Below, piece after piece: positions 22,836-56,779 of a stretch of DNA of 64,000 nucleotides (its first letter is position 1; each line of letters starts with the position of its first letter). The stretch covers positions 1,860,001-1,924,000 of the forward strand of contig NZ_CP045809.1 of NCBI RefSeq assembly GCF_025273675.1, given 5' to 3'. Source of the DNA: Gordonia pseudamarae. GTDB taxonomy: Bacteria; Actinomycetota; Actinomycetes; Mycobacteriales; Mycobacteriaceae. The translations under genes were made by a program, and so were the position numbers. A model generated the notes under the pieces. The model did not search any database. It was not told the origin of the DNA and was given only the letters and a program-made list of their open reading frames with translations.

Positions 22836-22920
<85 letters not shown>

Positions 22921-23308
22921 TGACATCCTTGCCCGGCCTCCGGCAGGTGTGCGCCCGCTGAGTTCGAATGCCATCGCGGAGGGCGCACCGTGAGCGGTTC
23001 AGGATGAATCGCGGGTAAGAGGTCGGGTTCCAGAAGTGCTACCTGACCCAATTGTTTTGTCTCTGGCCGAACGCGTTCCTGAAGCAGCGCCCGGGCAGCG
23101 TCCACGGTGATCGTATGGACCGTCCTCCACGTCAACGCCGGGGCAGCAGCCACCGCTGCCGCGCTCATCGTGTCGATCGCGATGCGCGGACAGGGACTTT
23201 GTGCCCTGGGCACAAAGTCGCGCCGATAATTCGTGTCTGGGGGCCGTTTTGCCGTCCCCGCGCAGCTCATAGTGTCAGAAGTCACATCCGGTAGGAAAGG
23301 TGACGACA
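22921..23308. other. Intergenic leader of the DUF3556 operon
   Basis: This 388-nt stretch lies between tRNA-Leu and the acyl-CoA ligase. The only structure I see is the 25-bp palindrome at 23195-23219 followed by GATAAT at 23225-23230, a reasonable -10 box. A weak minus-strand frame (to 22899) reads through the region, but it spans the tRNA and the operator and lacks family features. AGGAAAGG at 23293-23300 is the ribosome-binding site of the next gene. Confidence 0.6.
23195..23219. promoter_or_regulatory. Perfect 25-bp palindrome, candidate operator
   Basis: The arms GACTTTGTGCCC and GGGCACAAAGTC are exact reverse complements around a single T. It lies 5 nt upstream of GATAAT (23225-23230), so it would cover the -35 region of a promoter for the acyl-CoA ligase operon, whose first codon is 89 nt downstream. 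The operon's own PucR-type regulator is the obvious candidate ligand (inference). Confidence 0.7.
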
Positions 23309-24802
23309 GTGACACAGGGCACGTATTTCGCTTGGGAGCTGGCCTCCCGGGGTGACGCACCGTGCGTCCGCGACGACCGGCTGCAGTTGAGCTACGTGCA
23401 GTTCGCGCAGCGTGTCGACGCGGTGGCGCAGCAGCTGGCCGGGCTGGGCGTCGGGCCGGGGGACATGGTCGCGACGTTTCTGCCCAACCGCGCCGAATTG
23501 CTCATCACCCTGATGGCCGCCTGGCGGCTGCGGGCGGTGGCCACCCCGGTCAATCCGGGCTTCACCGACGCGGAGGCGGAATATCAGCTGGGCGATTCCG
23601 GCGCGAAGGTGGTCGTCGGCCAGGCGCCGGTCGGCGATCCGGCACGCATCTTCCTCGACGTCGACGATCTGGCGGTCCGGCCCACCGCACAGTGGACGCC
23701 GCCGACCCCGCCTACCGAAGCCGACGACGCCCTGCTGATCTACACCTCCGGCTCTACCGGGCGCCCGAAGGGGGTGCGCCTCGGGCACGATAATCTGCAT
23801 TTCTTCGGCCGCAGCGGGGGCGAGCACTTCCAGTGCGGCCCGGACACCCACGCCCTGCTGATTCTGCCGTTGTTCCACGTCAACGCCATCTGCGTCAGCT
23901 GCCTGACGCCGATCATGGCGGGCGGCCAGGTCAGCATCACCGGGCAGTTCTCGGTCAGCCGCTTCTTCGACGACGTGACGCGCCTGCGCCCGACGTTCTT
24001 CTCGGCCGTCCCCACCATCTACGCGCTGCTGGTCTCGCAGGCCGGCGGCGTCCCGCCGGGGGCGCTGGATTCCCTGCGGTACGCGATCTGCGGCGCGGCC
24101 CCGATCTCCCCGGAGCTCCTGGCGAAGACCGAGGAGACCTTCGGGGTTCCCATCGTCGAGGGCTACGGTCTCACTGAGGCCACCTGCGCATCGGCGTGCA
24201 ACCCGGTCGGCGGCGTGCGCAAACTCGGCACCGTCGGCCCGGCGCTGCCAGGCCAGCGCATCCGCATCGTCGACGCGAACGGCGATGACGCGCCGACGGG
24301 ACAGCGCGGCGAAGTCCTGATCGCCGGGCCGGCCGTGATGCGCGGCTACCTCAACCGCCCCGAGGCCACCGCCGAGACGATCGTCGACGGCTGGCTGCAC
24401 ACCGGTGACGTCGGGATCCTCGACGACGACGGCTACCTGCGCATCGTCGACCGGATCAAGGACATGATCATCCGCGGCGGCGAGAACATCTATCCCAAGG
24501 AGATCGAGGCCGCGCTGGCGACCAACCCGGCGGTCCTGGAATGCGCGGTGGTCGGCGCACCGGACCCGCTGCTGGGTGAAGTGCCCGTCGCCTTCGTCGT
24601 CGGCTACCCCGGCACCGACCTCACCGCGGACGACCTCGCCGAGTTCGTCGCACCGCAACTGACCAAGGTCAAGCGGCCCAGCGCGATCCACATCGTCGAC
24701 GCGCTGCCGCGCAATCCGGTCGGCAAGATCGACAAGCCCGGCCTGCGGCGGCAGACCGCGGCCGCCGGTCAGGTGCAGCCCGCCGGGGCCGCCCCGGCGT
24801 GA
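23309..24802 (+). CDS. AMP-forming acyl-CoA ligase, operon with DUF3556
   Basis: A 497-residue ANL-superfamily enzyme that activates a carboxylate through an acyl-AMP to its CoA thioester. The P-loop is LIYTSGSTGRPKG, and VEGYGLTEAT, HTGDVGILDDDGYLRIVDRIKDMI and RGGENIYPKEIEA are the A5, A7 and A8 motifs. The adenylation lysine is in NPVGKIDKPGL. It lacks transmembrane or extra domains and is shorter than FadD15, so it resembles medium-chain or aromatic acid ligases; the substrate is unknown. I favour the GTG at 23309, correctly spaced from AGGAAAGG; the GTG at 23300 overlaps that site. It is the first gene of the operon ending with the PucR regulator. Confidence 0.88.
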   Translation: MTQGTYFAWELASRGDAPCVRDDRLQLSYVQFAQRVDAVAQQLAGLGVGPGDMVATFLPNRAELLITLMAAWRLRAVATPVNPGFTDAEAEYQLGDSGAKVVVGQAPVGDPARIFLDVDDLAVRPTAQWTPPTPPTEADDALLIYTSGSTGRPKGVRLGHDNLHFFGRSGGEHFQCGPDTHALLILPLFHVNAICVSCLTPIMAGGQVSITGQFSVSRFFDDVTRLRPTFFSAVPTIYALLVSQAGGVPPGALDSLRYAICGAAPISPELLAKTEETFGVPIVEGYGLTEATCASACNPVGGVRKLGTVGPALPGQRIRIVDANGDDAPTGQRGEVLIAGPAVMRGYLNRPEATAETIVDGWLHTGDVGILDDDGYLRIVDRIKDMIIRGGENIYPKEIEAALATNPAVLECAVVGAPDPLLGEVPVAFVVGYPGTDLTADDLAEFVAPQLTKVKRPSAIHIVDALPRNPVGKIDKPGLRRQTAAAGQVQPAGAAPA

Positions 24803-24971
24803 GCCGGCGCCCGAGCGGCGCGCGCAGACACTTCCCGCACCCACCGGCCGCCGAGCACCACTCGGCGCGCTGCCCCCTACCCGAAACACGATCGAGCCGC
24901 TGCGCACAGCGCGCGCACCCCGATCGGCAAGCAACCCGCACGAGCGAACCCCCGAACAAAGGAGCTAGGCA

Positions 24972-26780
24972 ATGGGATTCAAAGAAGGGGACTTCCCGCC
25001 GGTGGACCCGGCGGCGTTCCGTGATCAACCTCTGCAGACGCGAGTCCGCCAGCTCGCGACGCACTGGGTCGACTACGGCTTCGGCACCCCGAAGATGGTG
25101 CACGTGATCTACCTGCTGAAGGTGGCCGTGCTGTACATCGTCGTCGGTGTCACCCTGGCCACAGTCACCTCCGGCCTGAACCCGCTGCAGGTCAGCGAGT
25201 GGTGGAACCAGCCGATCGTCTACCAGAAGCTGGTCCTGTGGACGATGCTCCTGGAAGCGATCGGGGTGGCCGGCTCGTGGGGCCCGCTGGCCGGCAAGTT
25301 CAGCCCGATGACCGGCGGTATCCTGTTCTGGCTGCGGCCGCAGACCATCCGGCTACCACCGTGGCCGGACACCGTACCCGGCACCAAGGGTGACTCGCGC
25401 ACCGTGTTCGACGTGGTCCTGTACGCCGCGATACTGGTGAACCTGCTGGTGGCGGTCTGCCTGCCCGGAAAGGACTCGGCGTCGTTCACCGAGGCGATGG
25501 CGGACTCACCGCCGGCGATCGACTCATCCCACGGACTCGTGAACCCGGCCGTTCTGTACTCGCTGCTGGTGCTCATGGCGGTGATGGGTCTGCGTGACAA
25601 GGTGATCTTCCTGGCCGCCCGCTCGGAGCAGTACCTGCCCGCGGTGATCTTCTTCGCCTTCCTGCCGTTCGTCGACATGATCGTCGCGCTGAAACTGCTG
25701 ATCGTGGTCGTCTGGATGGGCGCGGGCGTATCCAAGATCGGCCTGCACTTCACCAACGTGATCCCGCCGATGATCTCCAATGCGCCGTGGCTGACGATCA
25801 AGAGCCTCAAGCGCATGAACTACCGCAACTTCCCCGAAGACCTGCGGCCGTCGCGTGCGGCGACGTTCCAGGGGCACGTGCTGGGTACCGTCGTCGAGAT
25901 CGCAACTCCGCTGGTGCTGCTCTTCTCGGTCAACAAGTGGCTCACCCTGGCCGCCGTGATCCTGATGGTCTGCTTCCATCTGTTCATCTTCTCCGTCTTC
26001 CCGCTGGCTGTGCCGCTGGAGTGGAACATGCTGTTCGCCTTCGCGTCGGTGTTCCTGTTCTGTGGCTTCCCCGCGTGGGACGGGTTCGGCGTCGGCGACA
26101 TGAGCTCAGGCTGGTTGACCGCGGCGATCGTGATCGCGCTGCTGTTCTTCCCGGTGCTGGGCAATCTGCGGCCGGACCTGGTCTCGTTCCTGCCGTCCAT
26201 GCGCCAGTACGCCGGCAACTGGGCGTCGGCGATGTGGGCCTTCGCCCCGGGCGCCGAAGACAAACTGAACCAGCACATAGTCCGTCCGGCGAAGAACCAG
26301 ATCGATCAGCTGACCCCGGACTACGGCCCCGAGGCAGCCGAGATCACCATGGAACAGACCATCGCCTGGCGCGCCATGCACAGTCAGGGCCGCGGGCTGT
26401 ACTCGCTGCTGTACCGGGAACTCGGGGACCGTATCGACGAGTACACGATCCGCGAGGCGGAGTTCGCCTGCAACTCGCTGGTCGGCTTCAACTTCGGCGA
26501 CGGCCACATGCACAATTACCGTATGATCGAGGCCCTGCAGCGGCGCTGCAACTTCGCTCCCGGTGAGTTCACCGTGGTCTGGGTCGAGTCGCAGCCCATC
26601 GGCAAGAAGACACAGGAGTACATGGTGATCGACGCGGCTCAGGGCGTGATCGAACGCGGCACCTGGAATGTCGCGGACGCGGTCGCCGAGCAGCCGTGGC
26701 TGCCCAACGGCCCGATCCCGATGAACGTGACCTGGCGCAGCGCGAGCACGCCCGCCCGGGTGGGGGCACGTCAGTCATGA
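24972..26780 (+). CDS. DUF3556 polytopic membrane protein
   Basis: A 602-residue protein that I assign to DUF3556 from overall features and context. About nine hydrophobic segments occupy residues ~45-420. They include VVEIATPLVLLFSVNKW and a conserved-looking helix with a membrane-embedded His (MVCFHLFIFSVFPLAVPLEW, His near 336). A soluble C-terminal domain of ~180 residues follows (KNQIDQLTPDYGPEAAEITM; FNFGDGHMHNYRMIEALQRR). The His helix and layout recall the HTTM (vitamin K carboxylase-like) membrane fold, which is a guess. The ATG at 24972 has a perfect AAAGGAG. Its stop overlaps the next start as ATGA. Function unknown; it may be the membrane partner of the flavoenzyme behind it. Confidence 0.8.
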   Translation: MGFKEGDFPPVDPAAFRDQPLQTRVRQLATHWVDYGFGTPKMVHVIYLLKVAVLYIVVGVTLATVTSGLNPLQVSEWWNQPIVYQKLVLWTMLLEAIGVAGSWGPLAGKFSPMTGGILFWLRPQTIRLPPWPDTVPGTKGDSRTVFDVVLYAAILVNLLVAVCLPGKDSASFTEAMADSPPAIDSSHGLVNPAVLYSLLVLMAVMGLRDKVIFLAARSEQYLPAVIFFAFLPFVDMIVALKLLIVVVWMGAGVSKIGLHFTNVIPPMISNAPWLTIKSLKRMNYRNFPEDLRPSRAATFQGHVLGTVVEIATPLVLLFSVNKWLTLAAVILMVCFHLFIFSVFPLAVPLEWNMLFAFASVFLFCGFPAWDGFGVGDMSSGWLTAAIVIALLFFPVLGNLRPDLVSFLPSMRQYAGNWASAMWAFAPGAEDKLNQHIVRPAKNQIDQLTPDYGPEAAEITMEQTIAWRAMHSQGRGLYSLLYRELGDRIDEYTIREAEFACNSLVGFNFGDGHMHNYRMIEALQRRCNFAPGEFTVVWVESQPIGKKTQEYMVIDAAQGVIERGTWNVADAVAEQPWLPNGPIPMNVTWRSASTPARVGARQS

Positions 26781-28219
26781 CGACGGCCGTGGTGGTCGGC
26801 GGCGGTCCCAATGGGCTCGCCGCCGGCCTCCAGCTCGCGCGCAACGGCGTCGAGGTGACGGTCCTGGAAGCCAAGGATCGGATCGGCGGTGGTGCGCGGT
26901 CGGGTGAGCTGGAGGTTCCCGGCCTCATCCACGACTACTGCTCGGCCTTCCATCCGCTCGGCGTCGGCTCGCCGTTCTGGCAGACCGTCGGGCTCGACCG
27001 CTATGGCCTGCAGTGGGCGTGGCCGGAGATCGACTGCACCCATCCGCTCGACGATGGCGATGTCGGCGTGCTGTACCAGTCGATTGAGCAGACCGCCGCG
27101 GGTCTGGGTGTGGACGGACGGCGCTGGGAGCTGGCCTTCGGCGACGTGGTCCGGAACTTCGACACTCTGGCCCCGGACCTGATGCGGCCGATCGTCAACG
27201 TTCCCCGGCATCCGGTGCAGCTCGGAGCCTTCGGGCCGCGGGCGCTGCTGCCGGCCACCTGGCTGGCCCGGTGGTTCCGCACGGATGCGGCGCGGGCACT
27301 GTTCAGCGGGGTCGCGGCGCACGCCTTCACCCGGCTCGACGTTCCGCTGACCGCGGCGCTGGGCATCATGATCACCGCGAGCGGGCACCGCTTCGGCTGG
27401 CCGGTGGCCGTCGGCGGTTCGGGCGCCATCACCACGGCCGCGGCGGCGGCGCTGACGGATATGGGCGGCGCAATCGAAACCGGGCTGATGATCTCCGATC
27501 GGTCACAGATCCCGGATGCCGACTTGGTGCTGCTGGACCTGTCTGCCGCGCAGGTCCTGGCCCTGTACGGCGACCAGATGCCGGCGCGCATCGCGCGGGC
27601 CTACGGCCGCTACCGGATCGGGTCCTCGGCGTTCAAGGTCGATTTCGCGATCCGTGGGGACATTCCCTGGCGGAACGCCGAGTCCACCCGGGCGGGCACC
27701 GTGCACTTGGGCGGCACCGCCGCCGAGGTGGCGTACACCGAGAAGCAGCGTGCGGCCGGGATCCTGGTGGAGAACCCGTTTGTGCTGGTGGGGCAGCAGT
27801 ATCTGGCCGACCCGAGCCGTAGTAGCGGCGAGATCAATCCGATCTGGTCGTATGCGCACGTGCCGAAGGGCTTCGGCGGCGACGCCACCGAAGCCGTCAT
27901 CGGCCAGATCGAGCGATTCGCGCCCGGGTTCCGCGACCAGATCGTGGCGACCACGTCCACCGGGACCGTGGCCCTGGAGCAGTACAACCCCAACTATGCG
28001 GCCGGCGACATCATCGGCGGCGCCAACAACCGGCTGCAGACCGTCCTGCGGCCGCGGCTGGCGCTCGACCCGTACGCGACGGGCGTCGACGGCGTCTTCG
28101 TCTGCTCGCAGACGGCACCGCCGGGTGCGGGCATCCACGGGCTGTGCGGATTCCACGCCGCCAACTCGGCCCTGGCGTCGGTCGGAGTGCAACCGGATAT
28201 GACCGGCGGCCTGCGATGA
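26777..28219 (+). CDS. Phytoene-desaturase-like FAD-dependent oxidoreductase
   Basis: A 480-residue flavoprotein of the CrtI/amine-oxidase-like group. The N-terminal dinucleotide fold is AVVVGGGPNGLAAGLQLARNGVEVTVLEAKDRIGGGARS. The C-terminus ends with the FAD-contacting GVDGVFVCSQTAPPGAGIHGLCGFHAANSAL, as in CrtI-type enzymes. No carotenoid synthesis genes are nearby, so desaturation, saturation or isomerisation of another lipid is as likely. The ATG at 26777 overlaps the DUF3556 stop (ATGA) and its own stop overlaps the regulator start (ATGA): a fully coupled operon. Confidence 0.85.
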   Translation: MTTAVVVGGGPNGLAAGLQLARNGVEVTVLEAKDRIGGGARSGELEVPGLIHDYCSAFHPLGVGSPFWQTVGLDRYGLQWAWPEIDCTHPLDDGDVGVLYQSIEQTAAGLGVDGRRWELAFGDVVRNFDTLAPDLMRPIVNVPRHPVQLGAFGPRALLPATWLARWFRTDAARALFSGVAAHAFTRLDVPLTAALGIMITASGHRFGWPVAVGGSGAITTAAAAALTDMGGAIETGLMISDRSQIPDADLVLLDLSAAQVLALYGDQMPARIARAYGRYRIGSSAFKVDFAIRGDIPWRNAESTRAGTVHLGGTAAEVAYTEKQRAAGILVENPFVLVGQQYLADPSRSSGEINPIWSYAHVPKGFGGDATEAVIGQIERFAPGFRDQIVATTSTGTVALEQYNPNYAAGDIIGGANNRLQTVLRPRLALDPYATGVDGVFVCSQTAPPGAGIHGLCGFHAANSALASVGVQPDMTGGLR

Positions 28220-29487
28220 GCCGGCCGGCGGGCGAGGGCGTGGACCCCGAGCTGCTCGCGGTGGTCGAGGTCCTGGCCCGCCGGCTGCGCGACATCGAAG
28301 ACCGGATGGTCGACGACATGACGGCGCAGATGGCCGAGATCGACCACCTCGACGGCGATCCGGTCCTGGTGGACCTGTTGCACGCCAGCGTCGAAGGCAA
28401 CGTTACGACCATCAACCACATCCTGGCCAACAACATCCCGCTCGGGCATCTGCAGCCCACCACCGCGGCCGTCGAGTATGCCCTGCGCCTGGCTCAGCGG
28501 GAGGTGCCGTCGAACTCGCTGATGCGGGCCTACCGGATGGGCGAGTTCGAATACAACCGGCTCTGCCTGGACTTCCTCGAGGAGTTGGAGCTCGCGGAGG
28601 GGCTGTCGGTCCGGGTCGCCAGGTACGTCGCCACCGTCTTTTTCGACTACATCGAATGGATCACCCAGTACGTCTTTCAAGCCTACGAGAGCGAACGGGA
28701 ACGCTGGATCGGCGCCGAAGGCAACGTGCTCTCGTCCACGGTGAACCAACTGCTCGACGGCGACGATGAGCCCGACCCTTTCGAAACCGAGGCCTTCGAA
28801 GCGGAGACCGGATACCGGCTCGACCGCACCCACCTCGCGGCGATCCTGTGGTCGCAGGACTCCGCCGTCGGTCTCGCCGACATCGACCGGGCTGCAAGGT
28901 CTTTGGCCGTAGCCTTGCGGGCGGTGTCTGCTCCGGTCATCACCGCTGCCGACCGCAGCACCGTCTGGATGTGGATCCCGTTCGCCGGCACGCCGCCCCG
29001 GACCGACTCGGCGGCGACCGCCACCCAGGTGAGCCTTCCGCCGAACCTGCGCGTGGCGATCGGCCTTCCCGGCACCGGGGTGACCGGGTTCCGGCGTTCC
29101 TACCAGCAGGCCCGGTCCGCCTACGACGTCGCGTCCACGGTGCCGCGCGCCGAGCCGGTGGTGGTCGGATACGGCGACCGCGGCATCGCCGTCGTCTCCA
29201 TGATGGCGCGCGACCTGCCGTCGACTCGCGCGTGGATCTCCGATGTCCTCGGTCCGCTGGCGCAGGACACCCCGAATGCGCAGATCCTGCGGTCCACGCT
29301 GTCGGAGTTCCTCTCCAGCGGAGAGAGTCACGTCCGCACCGCCGAGCGGATGGTGCTGCACCGCAACACCGTCAAGTACCGCGTCGGTAAGGCGATGGCG
29401 GCGCTCCCGGATCGGCACGACCGGATGGATCTCGCGCTGGCACTCACCGTCTGCGAGTATCTGGGTGCGACGGTGCTGCAGTGCTAG
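28216..29487 (+). CDS. PucR/CdaR-type transcriptional regulator
   Basis: A 423-residue regulator. The N-terminal ~165 residues look like the RsbRD-type helical sensor found in actinobacterial PucR proteins (DDMTAQMAEIDHL; AYRMGEFEYNRLCLDFLEELE). The middle is a degenerate GGDEF-like domain (residues ~195-320), and the C-terminus (~345-423) is the PucR helix-turn-helix SGESHVRTAERMVLHRNTVKYRVGKAM. It is the last gene of the acyl-CoA ligase operon, overlapping the flavoenzyme stop, so it is probably an autoregulator responding to the pathway's substrate. The palindrome at 23195 is the likely site. Confidence 0.9.
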   Translation: MSRPAGEGVDPELLAVVEVLARRLRDIEDRMVDDMTAQMAEIDHLDGDPVLVDLLHASVEGNVTTINHILANNIPLGHLQPTTAAVEYALRLAQREVPSNSLMRAYRMGEFEYNRLCLDFLEELELAEGLSVRVARYVATVFFDYIEWITQYVFQAYESERERWIGAEGNVLSSTVNQLLDGDDEPDPFETEAFEAETGYRLDRTHLAAILWSQDSAVGLADIDRAARSLAVALRAVSAPVITAADRSTVWMWIPFAGTPPRTDSAATATQVSLPPNLRVAIGLPGTGVTGFRRSYQQARSAYDVASTVPRAEPVVVGYGDRGIAVVSMMARDLPSTRAWISDVLGPLAQDTPNAQILRSTLSEFLSSGESHVRTAERMVLHRNTVKYRVGKAMAALPDRHDRMDLALALTVCEYLGATVLQC

Positions 29488-46930: not shown

Positions 46931-47524
46931 GCTGAGCACCTTACGTCCCGGACGAATGCCGGGGCGAACTCTTTATCGGGTCGATGAGCGGTTATATCGG
47001 ACCGCCGTGCGATGCAGTGAACTGATTCACATAACAATTTCATAACGGCTTCGGGGGGGTGTCGCGCGAGGCGCACTCGGCGGCATTTGTGCAGGTACGG
47101 GCGTCGGTTCGGTGGGTCGGTTCGGCCGTGCGTGGACGGGCCGGAAGTTACCGACGGGGATACTCATGGGTATACCACTCGGTCACCCCAAAACATGAGG
47201 GAAACCTCACTTTCGTGTGTCATGATGGGTGCCACGTTCCTCGGTGGAAAGCGCGGACCGATCCCGGGTTGGTCATGTAATGCTTTGCGGCACTGATGTG
47301 TTCGATGAATTCGTGATGTGTTCGATGAATTCGAGGAACCGGTCGGCGCGTGGGACGATCTCGCGCCGCCGGCACGAGATGTCCCGCAACGACGCCACTC
47401 GACGATGACGCATGCCCGTATCGCGGCGAGCCCACCGCCGAACGCCTTTGCCGCGACCCGATCACCGATCCGAACCCCGATCACACAGCCCCGAAGATCA
47501 CACAGCCCCGAACGAGGAGAATCC
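46931..47524. other. Intergenic control region of fas
   Basis: This 594-nt gap separates the sirtuin and fas start codons. No convincing gene is present; short minus-strand frames to 47484 lack family features. It holds a perfect 20-bp tandem duplication (47294-47333). The strong GAGGAG ribosome-binding site of fas lies at 47514-47519. The window's plus strand is relatively AT-rich near 47030-47045, a possible promoter for one of the divergent genes. Confidence 0.6.
47294..47333 (+). repeat. Perfect 20-bp tandem duplication upstream of fas
   Basis: The unit TGATGTGTTCGATGAATTCG occurs at 47294-47313 and again at 47314-47333. Each unit contains TTCGATGAA, a TTC-N3-GAA palindrome that could bind a dimeric regulator. 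It lies ~190 nt before the fas start codon. Confidence 0.9.
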
Positions 47525-50500
47525 GTGACCGTCGATCACATCCGCACCGGCCAGCTGGGAGCCTCCACCGCTTCCCGAACCACCGGCACATTGATGGACC
47601 AGATCGCCGCCGGTGAACCGTACGCGATCAGTTTCGGCGGGCAAGGCTCACCGTGGCTGCCGACGCTGGCGGAACTGGTCGTCGACGCCGACCTCGAATA
47701 CCGGATCAGCAAGTACATCGACGCCGCGGAACGGCTGATCGCGCCCGTCGCCGACCGGCTCTCGATCGCCCGCCCCGACGGCTTCCATCCGCTCACCTGG
47801 GTCCGGGCCCACGACGCCGGCGACGACGTGCCCACCGACACCGCGCTGGCCGACGCGACGCTGTCGGTGCCGGGTGTGCTGCTCGCCCAGCTCGCCGCCG
47901 TCGACGCGCTTGCCAAGCAGGGTCTGGACACCGCGACGATCCCGCCCACATCGGTGGTCGGTCATTCGCAGGGCATCCTGGCCACCGAGGTGATCGCCAA
48001 CGACGGCGCCGGTGTGGGCGCAGGCGTGGTGCTGGCACTGGCCCAGCTGATCGGTGCGGCGGGCACCATCGTCGCGCGCCGCCGGGGCCTGGCCGCCACC
48101 TCCGACGGCACGCCGATGATGGCCATCGGGAACGCCGCCCCCGAACGGATCGACGCCATCCTGGCCGACTACCGCGCGGGCCTGTCCGAACGTGACCTCG
48201 GCACCGAGCCGGTCGTCGCCATCCGCAACGGCCGGACCGCCGTCATCGTGGCGGGCGCACCCCGCCACCTGAAGGCACTGCGTGCCCGCTGCGAGCAGAT
48301 CGCCGACGGCGAAGTCGACCAGCGCAAGCGTAAGCTCACCGGCGGCGCTCCGTTCGCACCCAAGTTCGACGCGCTGGTCGTGTCGCTGGCCTTCCACCAC
48401 CCGTCGATGGCCGAAGCGGTCGAGATGGTGGCCCAGTGGGCCGAGGAATGCGGTATCGATCGGGCCGTCGCCGCCCGCCTGGCCGCCGATGTCCTGGTCA
48501 ACCACGTGGACTGGGTGTCGATCATCGACGAGGTGATCGCCGGCGGCTCCCGGTGGATCCTCGATCTCGGCCCGGCCGATCTGGCAACGCGCCTGACCTC
48601 CGGTCTGGTGCGCGGTCAGGGTATCGGGCTGGTTCCGGCAGCACTGCGCGTCGGCCAGCGCAACCTCTTCAGCCCCGGTGGCATCCCCGAGATCGAGGCG
48701 CGCTGGTCGCAGTTCGATCCGCTCCTGGTGGAACTGCCCGACGGACGCACCGTGGTGGAGACCGCGTTCACCCGGCTCACCGGCCGCTCGCCGATGCTCC
48801 TCGCGGGAATGACGCCCACCACCGTCGACCCCGCGATCGTCGCGGCGGCGGCGAACGCCGGACACTGGGCCGAACTCGCCGGCGGTGGCCAGGTGACCGA
48901 GGAGATCTTCGCCCGCAACATCGCCACCCTCACCGACCTGCTGGAACCCGGTCGTGAGGCTCAGTTCAACGCCCTGTTCCTCGACCCGTACCTGTGGAAG
49001 TTGCAACTCGGCGGCAAGCGGATCGTGCAGAAGGCCCGTGCCCAGGGCGCCCCGCTCGACGGCGTGATCGTCTCGGCGGGCATTCCCGAACTCGACGACG
49101 CGGTCGCACTGGTCGACGAGTTCGTCGAGGCGGGCCTGCGCTACGTCGCGTTCAAACCGGGCACCGTCGAGCAGATCCGTGCGGTCGTCCGGATCGCGGC
49201 CGAGGTGCCGCACCACCCGGTCATCGTGCAGATCGAGGGCGGCCGCGCCGGTGGCCACCACTCCTGGGAAGACCTCGACGACCTGCTGCTGGCCACCTAC
49301 GGTGAACTCCGCGCCCGTCCCAACGTCGTGATCTGCGTCGGCGGCGGCATCGGCACGCCCGAGCGGGCCGCCGAGTACCTGACCGGCGTGTGGTCGGAGA
49401 ACCTCGGCTACCCCAAGATGCCGCTCGACGGCATCCTCATCGGCACCGCCGCGATGGCCACCAAGGAAGCCACCACATCGCCCGAGGTCAAACAACTGCT
49501 CGTCGACACCATCGGTTGTGACGAATGGATCGGCGCCGGTCACGAGAGTGCCGGTATGGCCTCCGGACGCAGCCAGCTCGGTGCCGACATCCACGAGGTC
49601 GACAATGCCGCCTCGCGATGCGGACGTCTGCTCGACGACGTGGCAGGCGACGCCGATGCCGTCGCCGAACGTCGCGATGAGATCGTCGAGGCCCTCGCAC
49701 ACACGGCCAAGCCGTACTTCGGTGATGTCGCCGACATGACCTACCGGCAGTGGCTCGACCGCTATGCGACCTTGGCCGTCGGTGGCGAGAGAGTCGACGG
49801 GGGCTCGGTCTGGGCCGATCAGCTGCCGTGGGCCGACATCACCTGGCAGACGCGATTCATCGACATGCTGCAGCGCACCGAGGCCCGGATGGCCCCCGCC
49901 GACCGCGGCGAGGTGCCCACGATGTTCGCCGGCACCGCGAGCACCGACGATCCACACGCCGCGATCGACGCCCTGGTCAGCGTGTATCCCGAGGCCGAGG
50001 TCGATATTCTGCATCCGGCGGATGTGGCGTTCTTCTTCGAGTTGTGCCGTACCCCCGGCAAACCGGTCAACTTCGTACCCGTCATCGACAAGGACGTGCG
50101 CCGTTGGTGGCGCAGCGATTCGCTGTGGCAGGCGCACGACGCCCGTTACTCGGCCGACGAGGTGTGCATCATCCCCGGCCCGGTGGCCGTCGCCGGTATC
50201 ACCCGGGTCGACGAGCCGGTAGGGGAACTGCTCGACCGGTTCGAGGCCCACGTGGCCGCCGATCTGGCCGCCGCCGGCGGTCAGGCGATCCCGGTCGACG
50301 GTCGTAAGCGGGCCGGTGTCGTCTCCGGTGAGGGCGCGGTTGCCGCGGTCCTGGAGGCCGACGACGTCGAATGGGCCGGTCGGATCGTGCCCAATCCGGT
50401 CACCGTGATCGGTGACCGCGGCCGCTGGGTCGTCGTCGATCCCGGCCGGGCCGAACACGCGCCCACCGGCGCCGTACTCGAACGGGCCGCCGAGGACCGC

Positions 50501-53500
50501 TTCGATCTCGTCGTGCCCGTGTCCGGCACCACGATCCGTATTCCGCTGCGCGTCACCGCGGCGATCGCCGACGGCGGCAGCCCGCTGATCGATGTCGCCG
50601 ACGCGTCCGCGGCGATGACCGAGATCCTGACCGTCGCGGCCGGCGGCTCGCTGGCCGAGGTCACCGACGGCGTAAGCACCACCGTCTTCTCCTGGAATCC
50701 CGACTCGGTCGCCGACCACGCGGCGGTCACCGGTTACACACTGCCCGCGCATCTGACCCCGACCACCCCGACGCAGCCGTTCGGTTTCGCCGTGCCCGAT
50801 ACCCTCGTCGGCGCGTGCTGGCCGTCGGTGTTCAGCGTGATCGGCGCGGCCCGCGCCGAATCGGGCGATCCCGTCGTGGAGGGTCTGCTCGACCTGGTAC
50901 ATCTCGACCACGCGATCGAGGTCGCCGGCCAGATCCCGACGGTCAGCGACGATCTGGACGTGACCGCTGCCCTACAGGGCGTGTACGACGCCGAGGTGGG
51001 CCGGGTCATCGAGGTGGGTGTCGACATCGCCGTCGCCGGCTCGCCGGTCGCGCGACTGGTCGAGCGTTTCGCCATCCGGGGCCGCCTCGGATCGGCCGAA
51101 CTGACCGACCCAGCACGGGCGGGCGGTGCCGCCGACGGCGAACAGCAGGCCACCCGCAAACTGCTGCGCGCGGCCACCATCACCGCACCCGGCCACATGG
51201 GCGGATTCGCGGCGGTGTCCGGTGACCGCAACCCCATCCATACCGACGCCATCGCGGCCCGCCTGGCGGGACTGGGCGATCCGATCGTGCACGGCATGTG
51301 GCTCTCGGCCGCCGCCCAGCAGGTGGTGACCGCCACCGACGCCAAGAACCCGATACCGTCGCCGCGGCCGCTGCTCGGCTGGACCGCCCGCTACCTGGGC
51401 ATGGTCCGCACCGGTGACACGATCGCCGTGCGCGTCGACCGGGTCGGACTCGACGCGGGCCGTGAGGTCGTCGAGGTCACCGCCAAGGTCGGCGACAACC
51501 TGGTGATGAGCGCGACCGGTGTACTCGCCGCCCCGCGCACTGTGTACGCATTCCCGGGACAGGGCATCCAGTCCAAGGGGATGGGTCTGGACGCCCGGTC
51601 CCGCTCCAAGGCCGCCCGCGACGTGTGGGACCGTGCCGACAAGCACACCCGTGCCGCGCTGGGCTTCTCGATCCTGGCCGTGGTGCGCGACAACCCGACC
51701 ACCCTGGTGGCCGGTGGCACCACTTACAACCACCCGGACGGCGTGCTGTACCTGACCCAGTTCACCCAGGTCGCGATGGCCACCCTCGGTGTCGCGCAGA
51801 TCGCCGAACTCAAGGAGTCCGGAGGCTTCGTCGACGGCGCCATCACCTGCGGCCACTCGGTGGGCGAGTACAACGCGCTCGCCGCCTGTGCCGGCGTTCT
51901 GCCGCTCGAAGCGGTGCTCGAAGTGGTGTTCCAGCGCGGCGAGGCCATGCATCACCTCGTTCCACGAGATGACAAGGGCCGCAGCGATTACCGGATGGCT
52001 GCCATCCGGCCCAGCCAGTTCGGGCTCGCTGACTCCGATGTCACCGCATTCGTCGATGACATGTCGGCGCGTACCGGTGAATTCCTGGAGGTGGTCAACC
52101 TCAACCTGCTCGGCTCGCAGTACGCGATCGCCGGTACTGTCCGCGGACTCGAGAGCCTCGAAGCCGAGATCGACCGTCGCCGTGCCGAATTCGGCGGAAA
52201 GCGGTCGTTCATCGTGGTACCGGGCATCGACGTACCGTTCCATTCGACCGTGCTGCGTGCCGGTGTGCCCGAGTTCCGGACCAAGCTCGACGAGCTTCTG
52301 CCCGCGCATATCGATCCGGAAATCCTTGTCGGACATTATATTCCGAACCTGGTGCCGCGACTGTTCTCGCTCGAACGCGACTTCGTGGCCGAGATCGCCG
52401 CGCTCGTCCCGTCCGCACCGCTCGACGACGTTCTCGCCGACTGGGACGGCTGGGCCGCCCGCCCGGGCGAACTGGTGCGTGTGGTGCTCATCGAGCTGCT
52501 GGCCTGGCAGTTCGCCAGCCCGGTCCGCTGGATCGAGACACAGGAACTGCTCTTCGCCCCGCGTGAACGGGACGGACTGGGCATCCAGCGGTTCATCGAG
52601 ATCGGTGTGAAGAGTGCGCCGACGCTGTCCGGTCTGGCCGGCAACACCCTCAAGCTCGACGACTACGCGCCCGCCACCGCAGAGGTGCTCAACCTCGAAC
52701 GCGACACCGCCGTCATCCTCGCGCAGGATGCCGGAGTGGAGCCCGAGGATGACGACGCCGTCGAGGCCGTTGCCGAAAGCGCCGATCAGGCAACCGAATC
52801 GGCACCTGCCGCGGCTGCCGCCCCGGCCCCGGCCGCACCTGTCGCCCCGGCCGGCGGTCCGCGTCCCGAGGACATCTCCTTCGGGCCGGCCGACGCCGTC
52901 CGGGCCGTGATCGCGATGTGGACCAAGATGGGTGTCGACCAGATCGGTGCCGCCGACACCATCGAGGCCCTGTGCGACGGTGTGTCCTCGCGCCGCAACC
53001 AGCTGCTGCTCGACATCGGCGGCGAACTGGGACTGGGCGCCATCGACGGTGCCGCCGAAGCCGACATGGTGGCGTTGTCGTCGACCGTGCAGACGCTGGC
53101 CCGCGGCTACCGTCCGCTCGGCGCGGTCCTCACCGACGCGGTGTCCGAACAGATCCGCAAGGTCATGGGCCCGCTGGGCAAACGCCAGTCCTACATCACC
53201 GACCGGGTGGAGAAGGTGTGGCAGCTCGGCCCCGGCTGGGGCCTGCACACCGTCGTCGCCCTGGCGATGGGTACCCGTGAAGGTGCGAGCGTGCGCGGCG
53301 GTGACCTCGGCAGCCTGCTCGACGGTCCGCTGTCCGGCGCCGACGCGCTGGACTCGCTGATCGACCGCGCCGTCGCCGCGGTCGGTGCCGACAAGGGCAT
53401 CGCCGTGGCCAAGCCCGCCGCCGAATCCGGTGGCGGGGCCACGGTGGACGCGGCCGCGCTCGGCGAGTTCGCCGAACAGATCACCGGCCGGTCCGGTGTC

Positions 53501-56500
53501 CTGGCGACCGCCGCACAGACCGTGCTGGCCAAGCTGGGCCTGACCGACACCGCCGGAACACCCGAGGTCGAGGAGAACCCGGACGCCGCGATTGCCGCGC
53601 TGGTCAGCGCCGAACTCGGTTCGGACTGGGCGCGCACCGTCGCACCCGCCTTCGACGAGCGCAAGGTCGTGCTCATCGACGACCGCTGGGCCACCAGTCG
53701 TGAGGATCTGGTGCGGCTGTGGCTGACCGACGCCGCCGATCTCGACGCCGACGCCGCCACCCGGTTCGCCGGGGCCGGTGAGGTCGTCGCCGAACACGCC
53801 ACCTGGTGGCAGGAGAAGGCGACGGCGGCGGGCAACGCGGAGCACGCACAGGTGTACGGCCGGATCGCCGAGGTCGCGCGTGCGGAGAGGGTCGGCGAGT
53901 ACGCCGACCAGATCGCCGTCGTCACCGGCGCCAGCAGGGGCTCCATCGCTGCGGCCGTCGTCGGTGGGCTGCTCGCCGGCGGTGCGACCGTCGTCGCCAC
54001 CACCTCGCGCCTCGACTCGGACCGGCTTGCCTTCTACAAGGAGCTGTACCGCACCCACGCGCGCTGCGGCGCCGCCCTGTGGGTCGCGCCGGCCAACATG
54101 GCCTCCTACTCCGATGTCGACGACCTGGTGTCGTGGATCGGTTCGGAGCAGACCGAGAACCTCGGCAGCACAACCGCCGTGGTCAAGCCCGCACTCAAGC
54201 CGACGATGCTGTTCCCGTTCGCCGCGCCGCGGGTTGCCGGTGACCTCACTGATGCCGGCGCGCGCGCCGAGCTGGAGATGAAGGTGCTGCTGTGGTCGGT
54301 GGAGCGGCTGATCGCCGCCCTGTCCGACATCAACGCCGACCACGACCTCGCGGCACGTCTGCACGTGGTGCTGCCCGGCTCGCCCAACCGCGGCATGTTC
54401 GGCGGTGACGGCGCCTACGGCGAGGCCAAGGCGGCCCTGGACGCAGTGGTGACCCGTTGGAACGTCGAAGACTCGTGGAAGCGCCGGACCACCCTGGCGC
54501 ACGCGCTGATCGGCTGGGTCCGTGGCACGGGTCTGATGGGCCACAATGATCCGCTGGTCGACGCCGTCGAAGAGGCAGGTGTGCGTACCTGGAGCACCGC
54601 CGAGATGGCGGCCAACCTGCTCGGCGTGTGCACGCCGGAGCAGCGGGCGCAGGCCGCGCAGGCTCCGATCGTCGCCGACTTCACCGGTGGACTCGACCCG
54701 GACGCCATCGATCTCAAGGCGCTGGCCGCGGCCGCACAGGCCGAGGCCGCCGAGGTCGAGGCGGACGAGGATTCCGCCGACACCGGTGCCGACACCGTCG
54801 CGGCGCTGCCCGCCCCGGCACGTGCCCGCGCATCGATGCGCCCGCAGTGGGCGCCGATCGAGGCCAAGCCCGAGGACCTGGTGGTGATCGTCGGTGCCGG
54901 CGAGCTCGGCCCGTACGGTTCGGCGCGAACCCGCTTCGAGATGGAGGTCGACGAGAAACTGTCGGCCGCGGGGGTGCTGGAACTGGCCTGGAACACAGGT
55001 CTGATCACCTGGGACAGCGCGCCCAAACCGGGCTGGTACGACACGGCCTCCGGTGACCCGGTGGCCGAATCCGAGATCGCCGACCGCTACCACGACGAGG
55101 TGGTCGAGCGGTGCGGTATCCGGCGCTACGCCGACGACGGCGCGATGGTGGACAACACCTCGCCGCTGCTGACCTCCGTGTTCCTCGACGAGGATCTCAC
55201 CTTCTCGGTGGGATCGGAGGCCGAGGCGCGTGCGTTTGCCGCCACCGCCCCCGACAAGACACGGGTACAGTTCGCCGCCGAATCCGGAGAATGGCAGGTC
55301 ACCAGACTCGCCGGCACCGAGATCCGCGTGCCCCGCCAGTTCGAGCTCAGCAGGACCGTCGGCGGTCAGATCCCGACAGGTTTCGACCCGACCCGTTGGG
55401 GCGTCACCCCCGACATGGTCGAATCCATCGACCGGGTTGCGCTGTGGAACCTCGTCGCCACCGTCGACGCGTTCCTGTCGTCGGGCTTCACCCCGGCCGA
55501 GTTGATGCGCTGGGTGCACCCCGGCCTGGTGGCCAACACCCAGGGCACCGGCATGGGCGGCATGACCTCGATGCGTGAGCTGTACATCAACACGCTGCTC
55601 GGTGAGGCCAAGGCCAACGACATCCTGCAGGAAGCGCTGCCCAATATCGTTGCCGCACATGTCGTACAGTCCTATATCGGCAGCTACGGCGCGATGATCC
55701 ACCCGGTCGCCGCCTGTGCCACCGCCGCGGTGTCGGTGGAGGAGGGCGTCGACAAGATCCGCCTCGGCAAGGCGCTGTTCGCGGTCGCCGGCGGGTTCGA
55801 CGACCTCGGTATCGAAGGCATCGTCGGCTTCGGTGACATGTCGGCCACCGCCGAATCGGCCGCGATGTCCGCCCGCGGCATCGATGAGCGCCGCTTCTCC
55901 CGCGCCAACGACCGGCGCCGGGGCGGGTTCGTCGAATCGCAGGGCGGTGGCACGATTCTGCTGGCCCGCGGTGACGTGGCCGCGCAGATGGGACTGCCCG
56001 TGCTCGGTGTGGTGGCCTGGGCGCAGAGCTTCGGCGACGGCGTGCACACCTCGATCCCGGCTCCGGGGCTGGGTGCGCTGGGTGCGGCCCGTGGCGGCCT
56101 GACCTCGCCGCTGGCCGGCGCGCTGGCCACCCTCGGAGTGAGCGCCGACGAGGTGGGCGTGATCTCCAAGCACGACACATCCACCCGCGCAAACGATCCC
56201 AACGAGTCCGAGCTGCACGAGCGGCTGGCCTCGGCGATCGGCCGCAGCGAAGGCGCACCGCTGTTCGTGGTCTCGCAGAAGTCGCTCACCGGTCACGCCA
56301 AGGGCGGCGCGGCGGCCTTCCAGCTGATCGGGCTGTGCCAGGTGCTGCGCGACGGAGTGATCCCGCCCAACCGCAGCCTCGACTGCGTCGACGAGAAGAT
56401 GCAGGAGTACCCGCACCTGGTGTGGGCGCGTGACACCCTGCACCTGGGTGAGCGCTTCCCGCTCAAGGCCGGTCTGCTCACCAGCCTCGGCTTCGGGCAT

Positions 56501-56779
56501 GTGTCCGGGCTGATCGCCGTGGTCCATCCGGAGGCGTTCGTGGCCACTCTCGATCCGGCTGTCGCCGACGACTACCGCGAGCGGGCCGCCGAACGCGAAC
56601 GGCTCGGCAACCAGCGCCTGCTGGATGCGATGTGCGGTGGCGAGGCCGCCTACACCCGGCCCTCGGGCCGCCGATTTGACGCCGACCGCGACGAGCACGA
56701 CGCGGAATCGGAACTGCTGCTCGATACTTCGGCACGCCTGGGTGCGTCGGGTGCGTACGGCGTAGGGTCGGTGCGATGA
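47525..56779 (+). CDS. fas: Type I fatty acid synthase (FAS-I), single multidomain polypeptide
   Basis: A 3084-residue megasynthase, as in mycobacteria (3069 in M. tuberculosis), making C16-C26 acyl-CoA primers for mycolic acids. Domain order: acetyltransferase (VVGHSQG, Ser148); enoyl reductase (from ~424, LLAGMTPTTVDPAIVAAAA); dehydratase hot-dog (GDRNPIHTD near 1232); malonyl/palmitoyl transferase (FPGQGIQ near 1341, GHSVGEY Ser near 1445); ACP (DGVSSRRNQ, phosphopantetheine Ser 1821 or 1822); ketoreductase (VVTGASRGSIAAAVVGG near 2131); ketosynthase (VAACATAAVS, Cys2731, with KHDTST and KSLTGHAKGG). An Ala/Pro-rich linker precedes the ACP. Start GTG 47525 has GAGGAG; the open frame extends upstream without conservation. 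It overlaps acpS by 4 nt. Confidence 0.98.
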   Translation: MTVDHIRTGQLGASTASRTTGTLMDQIAAGEPYAISFGGQGSPWLPTLAELVVDADLEYRISKYIDAAERLIAPVADRLSIARPDGFHPLTWVRAHDAGDDVPTDTALADATLSVPGVLLAQLAAVDALAKQGLDTATIPPTSVVGHSQGILATEVIANDGAGVGAGVVLALAQLIGAAGTIVARRRGLAATSDGTPMMAIGNAAPERIDAILADYRAGLSERDLGTEPVVAIRNGRTAVIVAGAPRHLKALRARCEQIADGEVDQRKRKLTGGAPFAPKFDALVVSLAFHHPSMAEAVEMVAQWAEECGIDRAVAARLAADVLVNHVDWVSIIDEVIAGGSRWILDLGPADLATRLTSGLVRGQGIGLVPAALRVGQRNLFSPGGIPEIEARWSQFDPLLVELPDGRTVVETAFTRLTGRSPMLLAGMTPTTVDPAIVAAAANAGHWAELAGGGQVTEEIFARNIATLTDLLEPGREAQFNALFLDPYLWKLQLGGKRIVQKARAQGAPLDGVIVSAGIPELDDAVALVDEFVEAGLRYVAFKPGTVEQIRAVVRIAAEVPHHPVIVQIEGGRAGGHHSWEDLDDLLLATYGELRARPNVVICVGGGIGTPERAAEYLTGVWSENLGYPKMPLDGILIGTAAMATKEATTSPEVKQLLVDTIGCDEWIGAGHESAGMASGRSQLGADIHEVDNAASRCGRLLDDVAGDADAVAERRDEIVEALAHTAKPYFGDVADMTYRQWLDRYATLAVGGERVDGGSVWADQLPWADITWQTRFIDMLQRTEARMAPADRGEVPTMFAGTASTDDPHAAIDALVSVYPEAEVDILHPADVAFFFELCRTPGKPVNFVPVIDKDVRRWWRSDSLWQAHDARYSADEVCIIPGPVAVAGITRVDEPVGELLDRFEAHVAADLAAAGGQAIPVDGRKRAGVVSGEGAVAAVLEADDVEWAGRIVPNPVTVIGDRGRWVVVDPGRAEHAPTGAVLERAAEDRFDLVVPVSGTTIRIPLRVTAAIADGGSPLIDVADASAAMTEILTVAAGGSLAEVTDGVSTTVFSWNPDSVADHAAVTGYTLPAHLTPTTPTQPFGFAVPDTLVGACWPSVFSVIGAARAESGDPVVEGLLDLVHLDHAIEVAGQIPTVSDDLDVTAALQGVYDAEVGRVIEVGVDIAVAGSPVARLVERFAIRGRLGSAELTDPARAGGAADGEQQATRKLLRAATITAPGHMGGFAAVSGDRNPIHTDAIAARLAGLGDPIVHGMWLSAAAQQVVTATDAKNPIPSPRPLLGWTARYLGMVRTGDTIAVRVDRVGLDAGREVVEVTAKVGDNLVMSATGVLAAPRTVYAFPGQGIQSKGMGLDARSRSKAARDVWDRADKHTRAALGFSILAVVRDNPTTLVAGGTTYNHPDGVLYLTQFTQVAMATLGVAQIAELKESGGFVDGAITCGHSVGEYNALAACAGVLPLEAVLEVVFQRGEAMHHLVPRDDKGRSDYRMAAIRPSQFGLADSDVTAFVDDMSARTGEFLEVVNLNLLGSQYAIAGTVRGLESLEAEIDRRRAEFGGKRSFIVVPGIDVPFHSTVLRAGVPEFRTKLDELLPAHIDPEILVGHYIPNLVPRLFSLERDFVAEIAALVPSAPLDDVLADWDGWAARPGELVRVVLIELLAWQFASPVRWIETQELLFAPRERDGLGIQRFIEIGVKSAPTLSGLAGNTLKLDDYAPATAEVLNLERDTAVILAQDAGVEPEDDDAVEAVAESADQATESAPAAAAAPAPAAPVAPAGGPRPEDISFGPADAVRAVIAMWTKMGVDQIGAADTIEALCDGVSSRRNQLLLDIGGELGLGAIDGAAEADMVALSSTVQTLARGYRPLGAVLTDAVSEQIRKVMGPLGKRQSYITDRVEKVWQLGPGWGLHTVVALAMGTREGASVRGGDLGSLLDGPLSGADALDSLIDRAVAAVGADKGIAVAKPAAESGGGATVDAAALGEFAEQITGRSGVLATAAQTVLAKLGLTDTAGTPEVEENPDAAIAALVSAELGSDWARTVAPAFDERKVVLIDDRWATSREDLVRLWLTDAADLDADAATRFAGAGEVVAEHATWWQEKATAAGNAEHAQVYGRIAEVARAERVGEYADQIAVVTGASRGSIAAAVVGGLLAGGATVVATTSRLDSDRLAFYKELYRTHARCGAALWVAPANMASYSDVDDLVSWIGSEQTENLGSTTAVVKPALKPTMLFPFAAPRVAGDLTDAGARAELEMKVLLWSVERLIAALSDINADHDLAARLHVVLPGSPNRGMFGGDGAYGEAKAALDAVVTRWNVEDSWKRRTTLAHALIGWVRGTGLMGHNDPLVDAVEEAGVRTWSTAEMAANLLGVCTPEQRAQAAQAPIVADFTGGLDPDAIDLKALAAAAQAEAAEVEADEDSADTGADTVAALPAPARARASMRPQWAPIEAKPEDLVVIVGAGELGPYGSARTRFEMEVDEKLSAAGVLELAWNTGLITWDSAPKPGWYDTASGDPVAESEIADRYHDEVVERCGIRRYADDGAMVDNTSPLLTSVFLDEDLTFSVGSEAEARAFAATAPDKTRVQFAAESGEWQVTRLAGTEIRVPRQFELSRTVGGQIPTGFDPTRWGVTPDMVESIDRVALWNLVATVDAFLSSGFTPAELMRWVHPGLVANTQGTGMGGMTSMRELYINTLLGEAKANDILQEALPNIVAAHVVQSYIGSYGAMIHPVAACATAAVSVEEGVDKIRLGKALFAVAGGFDDLGIEGIVGFGDMSATAESAAMSARGIDERRFSRANDRRRGGFVESQGGGTILLARGDVAAQMGLPVLGVVAWAQSFGDGVHTSIPAPGLGALGAARGGLTSPLAGALATLGVSADEVGVISKHDTSTRANDPNESELHERLASAIGRSEGAPLFVVSQKSLTGHAKGGAAAFQLIGLCQVLRDGVIPPNRSLDCVDEKMQEYPHLVWARDTLHLGERFPLKAGLLTSLGFGHVSGLIAVVHPEAFVATLDPAVADDYRERAAERERLGNQRLLDAMCGGEAAYTRPSGRRFDADRDEHDAESELLLDTSARLGASGAYGVGSVR

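Follow-up and report, generated by a model that had tools for sequence, protein, structure and literature searches.

A recurrent four-gene unit of actinobacteria links a DUF3556 membrane protein of predicted GGCX-type fold with an acyl-CoA ligase, a CrtI-like flavoenzyme and a PucR-type regulator

Here, we explored four adjacent genes of Gordonia pseudamarae, located in a 64,000-nucleotide stretch of contig NZ_CP045809.1 (positions 1,860,001 to 1,924,000; hereafter, the window), which encode an acyl-coenzyme A (CoA) ligase (LIG), a membrane protein of the DUF3556 family, a CrtI-like flavoenzyme (CRT) and a PucR-type regulator (PUC). Our analysis revealed that these four genes travel together, and that the architecture of the operator and −10 element in front of them is fixed across loci. 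Each of the proteins has a known or likely fold; the combination of the genes is new to us, as is the link to GGCX, the human vitamin K enzyme that activates clotting factors and is known mainly from protein modification in animals. We propose, with doubt slightly outweighing belief, that the genes form a mobile, self-contained unit dealing with an exogenous carboxylic acid through regulated activation, CoA ligation and membrane processing.

The four open reading frames, all on the forward strand, sit where an earlier note made from the sequence had placed a coupled operon, and their Pfam domains agree with its assignments. LIG (23300..24802; 500 amino acids), a member of the ANL superfamily (PF00501, 1.9e-88; PF13193, 3.8e-21), starts with GTG, with an alternative GTG start at 23309. 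After a gap of 169 nt follow the genes for the DUF3556 protein (24972..26780; 602 amino acids; PF12077, 1.1e-266), for CRT, a flavin adenine dinucleotide (FAD)-dependent oxidoreductase (26777..28219; 480 amino acids; Pfam NAD_binding_8), and for PUC (28216..29487; 423 amino acids), which combines a GGDEF-like domain (GGDEF_2, PF17853, 2.6e-17) with a PucR C-terminal helix-turn-helix (HTH_30, PF13556, 1.8e-9). As the same note had read, ATGA overlaps join DUF3556 to CRT (26777-26780) and CRT to PUC (28216-28219), and ribosome-binding sites precede the first two genes, namely, AGGAAAG 5′ of GTG 23300 and AAAGGAG 5′ of ATG 24972.

An adjacency check across actinobacterial genomes led us to reject chance adjacency: among 80 named loci, which are the best 80 of 582 relatives and favour those of the window's copy, CRT accompanies DUF3556 in 75, PUC in 68 and LIG in 65, and all four genes are present in 60. 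The four-gene clusters display six gene orders, the commonest being a divergent PUC with LIG-DUF3556-CRT (33 loci) and the LIG-DUF3556-CRT-PUC order of the window (15), followed by rarer ones such as DUF3556-LIG-PUC-CRT (3) and a divergent LIG with PUC-DUF3556-CRT (3). Thus, the order has been rearranged while the content was kept, which points to a functional link and not to synteny alone. Of 73 loci, 51 have overlapping frames for DUF3556 and CRT, 48 of them through ATGA, when the start is taken as the nearest in-frame ATG or GTG. In four of the five named loci that lack CRT, the contig ends early, within 180 nt past DUF3556 (L113, L115 and L147) or inside a ligase (L104); the fifth, L141, has about 1.66 kb 3′ of DUF3556 without CRT and may be a true exception to the pairing. 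Two further loci show partial loss: in L075, DUF3556 and CRT are mostly gone with LIG and PUC intact, and in L073, DUF3556 is broken and CRT is missing beside it with the ligase intact.

Counting the own genome, 36 of 61 genomes from the window's kin contain DUF3556, as do 23 of 396 sampled from the phylum; among 48 DUF3556 regions (again counting the own genome), those of operon type are accompanied by CRT and mostly by LIG and PUC as well. The genera include Gordonia, Rhodococcus, Nocardia, Mycobacterium/Mycolicibacterium, Streptomyces, Amycolatopsis, Microbacterium, Brevibacterium, Nocardioides, Knoellia, Tsukamurella and Paraconexibacter, and one of the 80 named loci carries the label of an Acidobacteria metagenome-assembled genome. 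The unit seems to have been passed around among soil bacteria as a package. On the Rhodococcus opacus plasmid pR1CP1, recombinase and transposase genes surround the four genes, and LIG-DUF3556-CRT is found beside a divergent helix-turn-helix regulator on two Tsukamurella plasmids. In a DUF3556 protein tree of 52 sequences, 32 of the 33 operonic ones fall into one clade (support 99/100), together with one sequence of unknown context, and within it the Gordonia sequences are scattered among those of other genera such as Rhodococcus, Nocardia and Knoellia; G024, a Gordonia genome, carries three DUF3556-CRT copies and one solo copy. Solo DUF3556 proteins form a separate clade (100/100; 8 solo sequences and 7 of unknown context), of which the remaining operonic sequence, L066, is a weakly supported sister (86/47). 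Members of the solo clade (e.g., L057, L056, L042) mostly lack ligase, flavoenzyme and regulator alongside and are common in Gordonia and related genomes. A tRNA-Leu gene (22836-22920) lies about 380 nt 5′ of LIG in the window, and three of 12 loci scanned (L062, L068 and L075) likewise have tRNA-Leu genes no more than 6 kb from the cluster, a proximity that may mark an integration hotspot. On one Tsukamurella plasmid (L160, 1-3138), the regulator of the unit and a mycofactocin gene cluster are some 3 kb apart.

The perfect 25-bp palindrome that the earlier note described upstream of LIG is borne out: at 23195..23219, two fully complementary arms of 12 nt flank a single nucleotide (GACTTTGTGCCC-T-GGGCACAAAGTC). 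Its 23-bp core is unique in the window even with up to 3 mismatches allowed, and 100 shuffles produced no copy. The palindrome belongs to a conserved TTTGT-N9-ACAAA site (core 23198-23216), the perfect form of which occurs at only two places in the 5.15-Mb own genome, the other being at G000:C1:3173958-3173976. Across 79 first-gene upstream regions (the 80 named loci minus one truncated locus), the perfect site is found in 16, against 0.02 expected from the remainder of the same loci, and a site with at most 1 mismatch in 37 (0.10 expected); at up to 2 mismatches it is found in 56 (1.06 expected), a count that is partly circular because the pattern was derived, before counting, from palindromes of the window and of roughly twelve of these loci. 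By first gene, this last threshold yields 48 of 57 for LIG and 8 of 22 for DUF3556, and in divergent arrangements the usual place of the site is the gap between PUC and LIG. None of the Microbacterium loci counted has the TTTGT-N9-ACAAA site, three loci have another palindrome, GTGCACCGTGCAC, in its place, and in 24 solo-type sequences, including L066, no site with up to 2 mismatches was found within 300 nt 5′ of DUF3556.

The spacing to the promoter, which played no part in choosing the operator sites, is equally regular. Among 57 aligned upstream regions (that of the window plus those of the 56 loci that have an operator match), counting from the operator centre, 42 have a TANNNT element at +63 and 11 have one at +64; in the window, it corresponds to TAGTGT (23270..23275, forward strand), the likely −10 element. 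The GATAAT that the earlier note had singled out is indeed present beside the palindrome (23225-23230), but it is unlikely to serve as the −10 element, since what relatives keep in place is TANNNT at +63; L079 has GATAGT at the corresponding place, and the element is absent from most other loci compared. Between operator and −10, information content reveals a second conserved stretch (23227..23251, forward strand), roughly +20 to +44 relative to the operator centre, which may hold a further contact for the regulator together with the −35 element. The self-regulation suggested in that note is probable: PUC would bind the palindrome and control the unit through it, and the location of the site, with its centre some 75 nt before the start and at a constant distance, would suit an activator.

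The earlier note had assigned no known role to DUF3556, for which there is now a lead. Its AlphaFold2 model (predicted local distance difference test 90.4; predicted TM-score 0.91) best matches GGCX, which accounts for all of the top 14 Foldseek and top 16 VIA matches, and DUF3556 is thus predicted to have a GGCX-type fold. At the sequence level, the corresponding family, GGCX/HTTM (PF05090), stands apart: none of 21 DUF3556 sequences matches Pfam HTTM at E values up to 10, and hhalign comparison of DUF3556 with GGCX profiles gave a probability below 1%, with a score reached by 56/150 and 9/150 shuffles, a rough control in which some shuffles scored anomalously above 130. The attempt to prove homology to GGCX by profile comparison thus ended at noise against the shuffled controls. 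Invariant in all 77 aligned DUF3556 sequences are K255, D209-K210, R217, E219, H259 and E350-W351-N352; the Lys255 codon lies at 25734..25736 (forward strand), and the residue is likewise invariant in 21/21 aligned rows. The best local profile alignments, weak and non-significant, place Lys255 on GGCX K218, and alignment by eye puts the invariant E219 at the position of H160, which itself is not recognisable. PMC12589487 describes K218 as the residue that deprotonates vitamin K hydroquinone in human GGCX and lists F286, F294, F299, H160 and V210 as lining its quinone pocket. GGCX acts on propeptide-bearing protein substrates, whereas DUF3556 has operon partners instead.

The best solved relatives of LIG are feruloyl- and fatty-acyl-CoA ligases and oxalate-CoA ligases (8wev, feruloyl-CoA synthetase; 3r44, FadD13; 5ie0, oxalate-CoA ligase), with which it shares both Pfam domains, AMP-binding and AMP-binding_C, but its scores fall short of the cut-offs of all 25 top-ranking NCBIfam families of 108. 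CRT is closest in fold to a carotenoid desaturase and shares with CrtI/CrtD enzymes (4rep, 4dgk) the FAD-binding N-terminus with its Rossmann motif, but lies far under the NCBIfam crtI_fam cut-off (34.7 vs 238.1 bits). Neighbour analysis of 78 named loci, with five neighbour representatives scanned, brought to light no carotenoid genes that recur next to the unit. A second CRT paralogue of the own genome (G000:C1:4955207-4956640) stands without LIG, DUF3556 and PUC; its locus has a small conserved protein in common with L225, L226, L229, L234 and L236, which among themselves have another CrtI-like gene in common, and the 20 paralogue regions compared contain no DUF3556, LIG or PUC, except for a ligase about 5 kb off in L224. 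PUC has the GGDEF-like domain and C-terminal helix-turn-helix of PucR/CdaR regulators (37.7 bits against PF13556, cut-off 27) but reaches just 101 bits in the NCBIfam Rv1453 family, against an equivalog cut-off of 600; its residues 1-185 are without a Pfam match, and PF07905, which we take to be the N-terminal PucR domain, is not among its Pfam matches at E values up to 0.001.

We clustered all frames of at least 150 amino acids within 9 kb of DUF3556 in the 78 loci, with the four families masked, and found no specific family that recurs widely as a fifth partner. The largest further family, the very common short-chain dehydrogenases, reaches just 14 of 78 loci, the next 9 and the others at most 7, so that we take the unit as self-contained. 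Of five neighbour representatives, Pfam identifies two as short-chain dehydrogenases and one as an alpha/beta hydrolase, leaving two without a match. Elsewhere in the window, a frame of 3153 amino acids (47318-56779) carries type I fatty acid synthase domains.

The course of events we envisage begins with PUC, which would sense the acid or a derivative and, bound to TTTGT-N9-ACAAA some 75 nt ahead of the transcription start, activate transcription, whereupon LIG would turn the acid into a CoA thioester. DUF3556, translationally coupled to CRT, may bind menaquinol in a GGCX-like pocket, with Lys255 as the counterpart of the base Lys218 of GGCX, and apply quinol/O2 chemistry or quinone redox to the acyl substrate; CRT could desaturate or isomerise the same hydrophobic chain, or swap electrons with that quinone. 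The product would enter general metabolism, given that no specific further gene family widely recurs beside the unit. LIG, CRT and DUF3556 could conceivably act in the order acid activation, desaturation and then carboxylation, as in the Atu/Liu acyclic terpene pathway. That pathway employs biotin carboxylases and further CoA enzymes, whereas the neighbour analysis recognised no such family as recurrent beside the unit. In its boldest form, which we regard as quite doubtful, DUF3556 and CRT would be a machine driven by menaquinol and O2 that needs no biotin, takes a proton from an activated small-molecule acid and carboxylates (or oxygenates) it, so that vitamin-K-type chemistry on metabolites would have spread as a mobile operon among actinobacteria. 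Compared with the self-regulated acid pathway of the earlier note, the linkage and the probable control via the palindrome persist; GATAAT is probably not the −10 element, and DUF3556 is no longer without a lead.

The main rival to this scheme, unlikely but credible, makes DUF3556 a non-catalytic quinone dock: CRT would oxidise an acyl or isoprenoid chain and pass the electrons to menaquinone bound by DUF3556, much as plant phytoene desaturases use plastoquinone. The tight, ATGA-coupled pairing of the two genes, the quinone pocket that a GGCX fold would provide and the carotenoid desaturase as the nearest fold of CRT all suit such a dock; the many invariant charged residues, K255 and E219 included, are not expected of a mere dock, and solo-clade proteins retain K255 without an adjacent CRT. 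The GGCX likeness could also reflect a shared helical-bundle arrangement only, with DUF3556 serving as a transporter or scaffold for the acid, which we consider improbable; the Foldseek TM-scores of the GGCX match and the helical-bundle caveat slightly lower our confidence in the enzymatic scheme and raise that in this reading.

Alternatively, the unit might be a detoxification or resistance cassette, induced by and inactivating a toxic acid or quinone-directed compound of competitors rather than serving growth. Its stand-alone, self-regulated and mobile character and the lack of a widely recurrent, specific downstream catabolic family among the neighbours would fit. We rate this reading a shade below the quinone dock. 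Against it, the ligase forms CoA thioesters, typical of catabolism or biosynthesis, and the sole expression record comes from growth on a hydrocarbon polymer. There, in R. opacus R7 on polyethylene, a DUF3556-like gene, which may lie in such an operon, was up with a log fold change of 5.5 (PMC8556283), a record that we also count in favour of our own scheme.

Open-licence full texts yielded one paper that mentions DUF3556 but no description of the four-gene unit, nor any match for PF12077 or for PucR combined with phytoene dehydrogenase; for HTTM or vitamin K in bacteria, the titles and abstract openings of the literature pointed to no function paper. The results presented here tie DUF3556, a family of unknown function, to a precise structural relative, a three-gene context and a promoter, and thereby make its function testable through quinone binding, Lys255, the inducing acid and DNA binding at a named operator. 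The GGCX-like shape of the DUF3556 model suggests an unexplored vitamin-K-type reaction in bacteria. If such chemistry does act on small acids in these organisms, it would represent a new route for activating C-H bonds adjacent to acids and would be relevant to the origin of GGCX.
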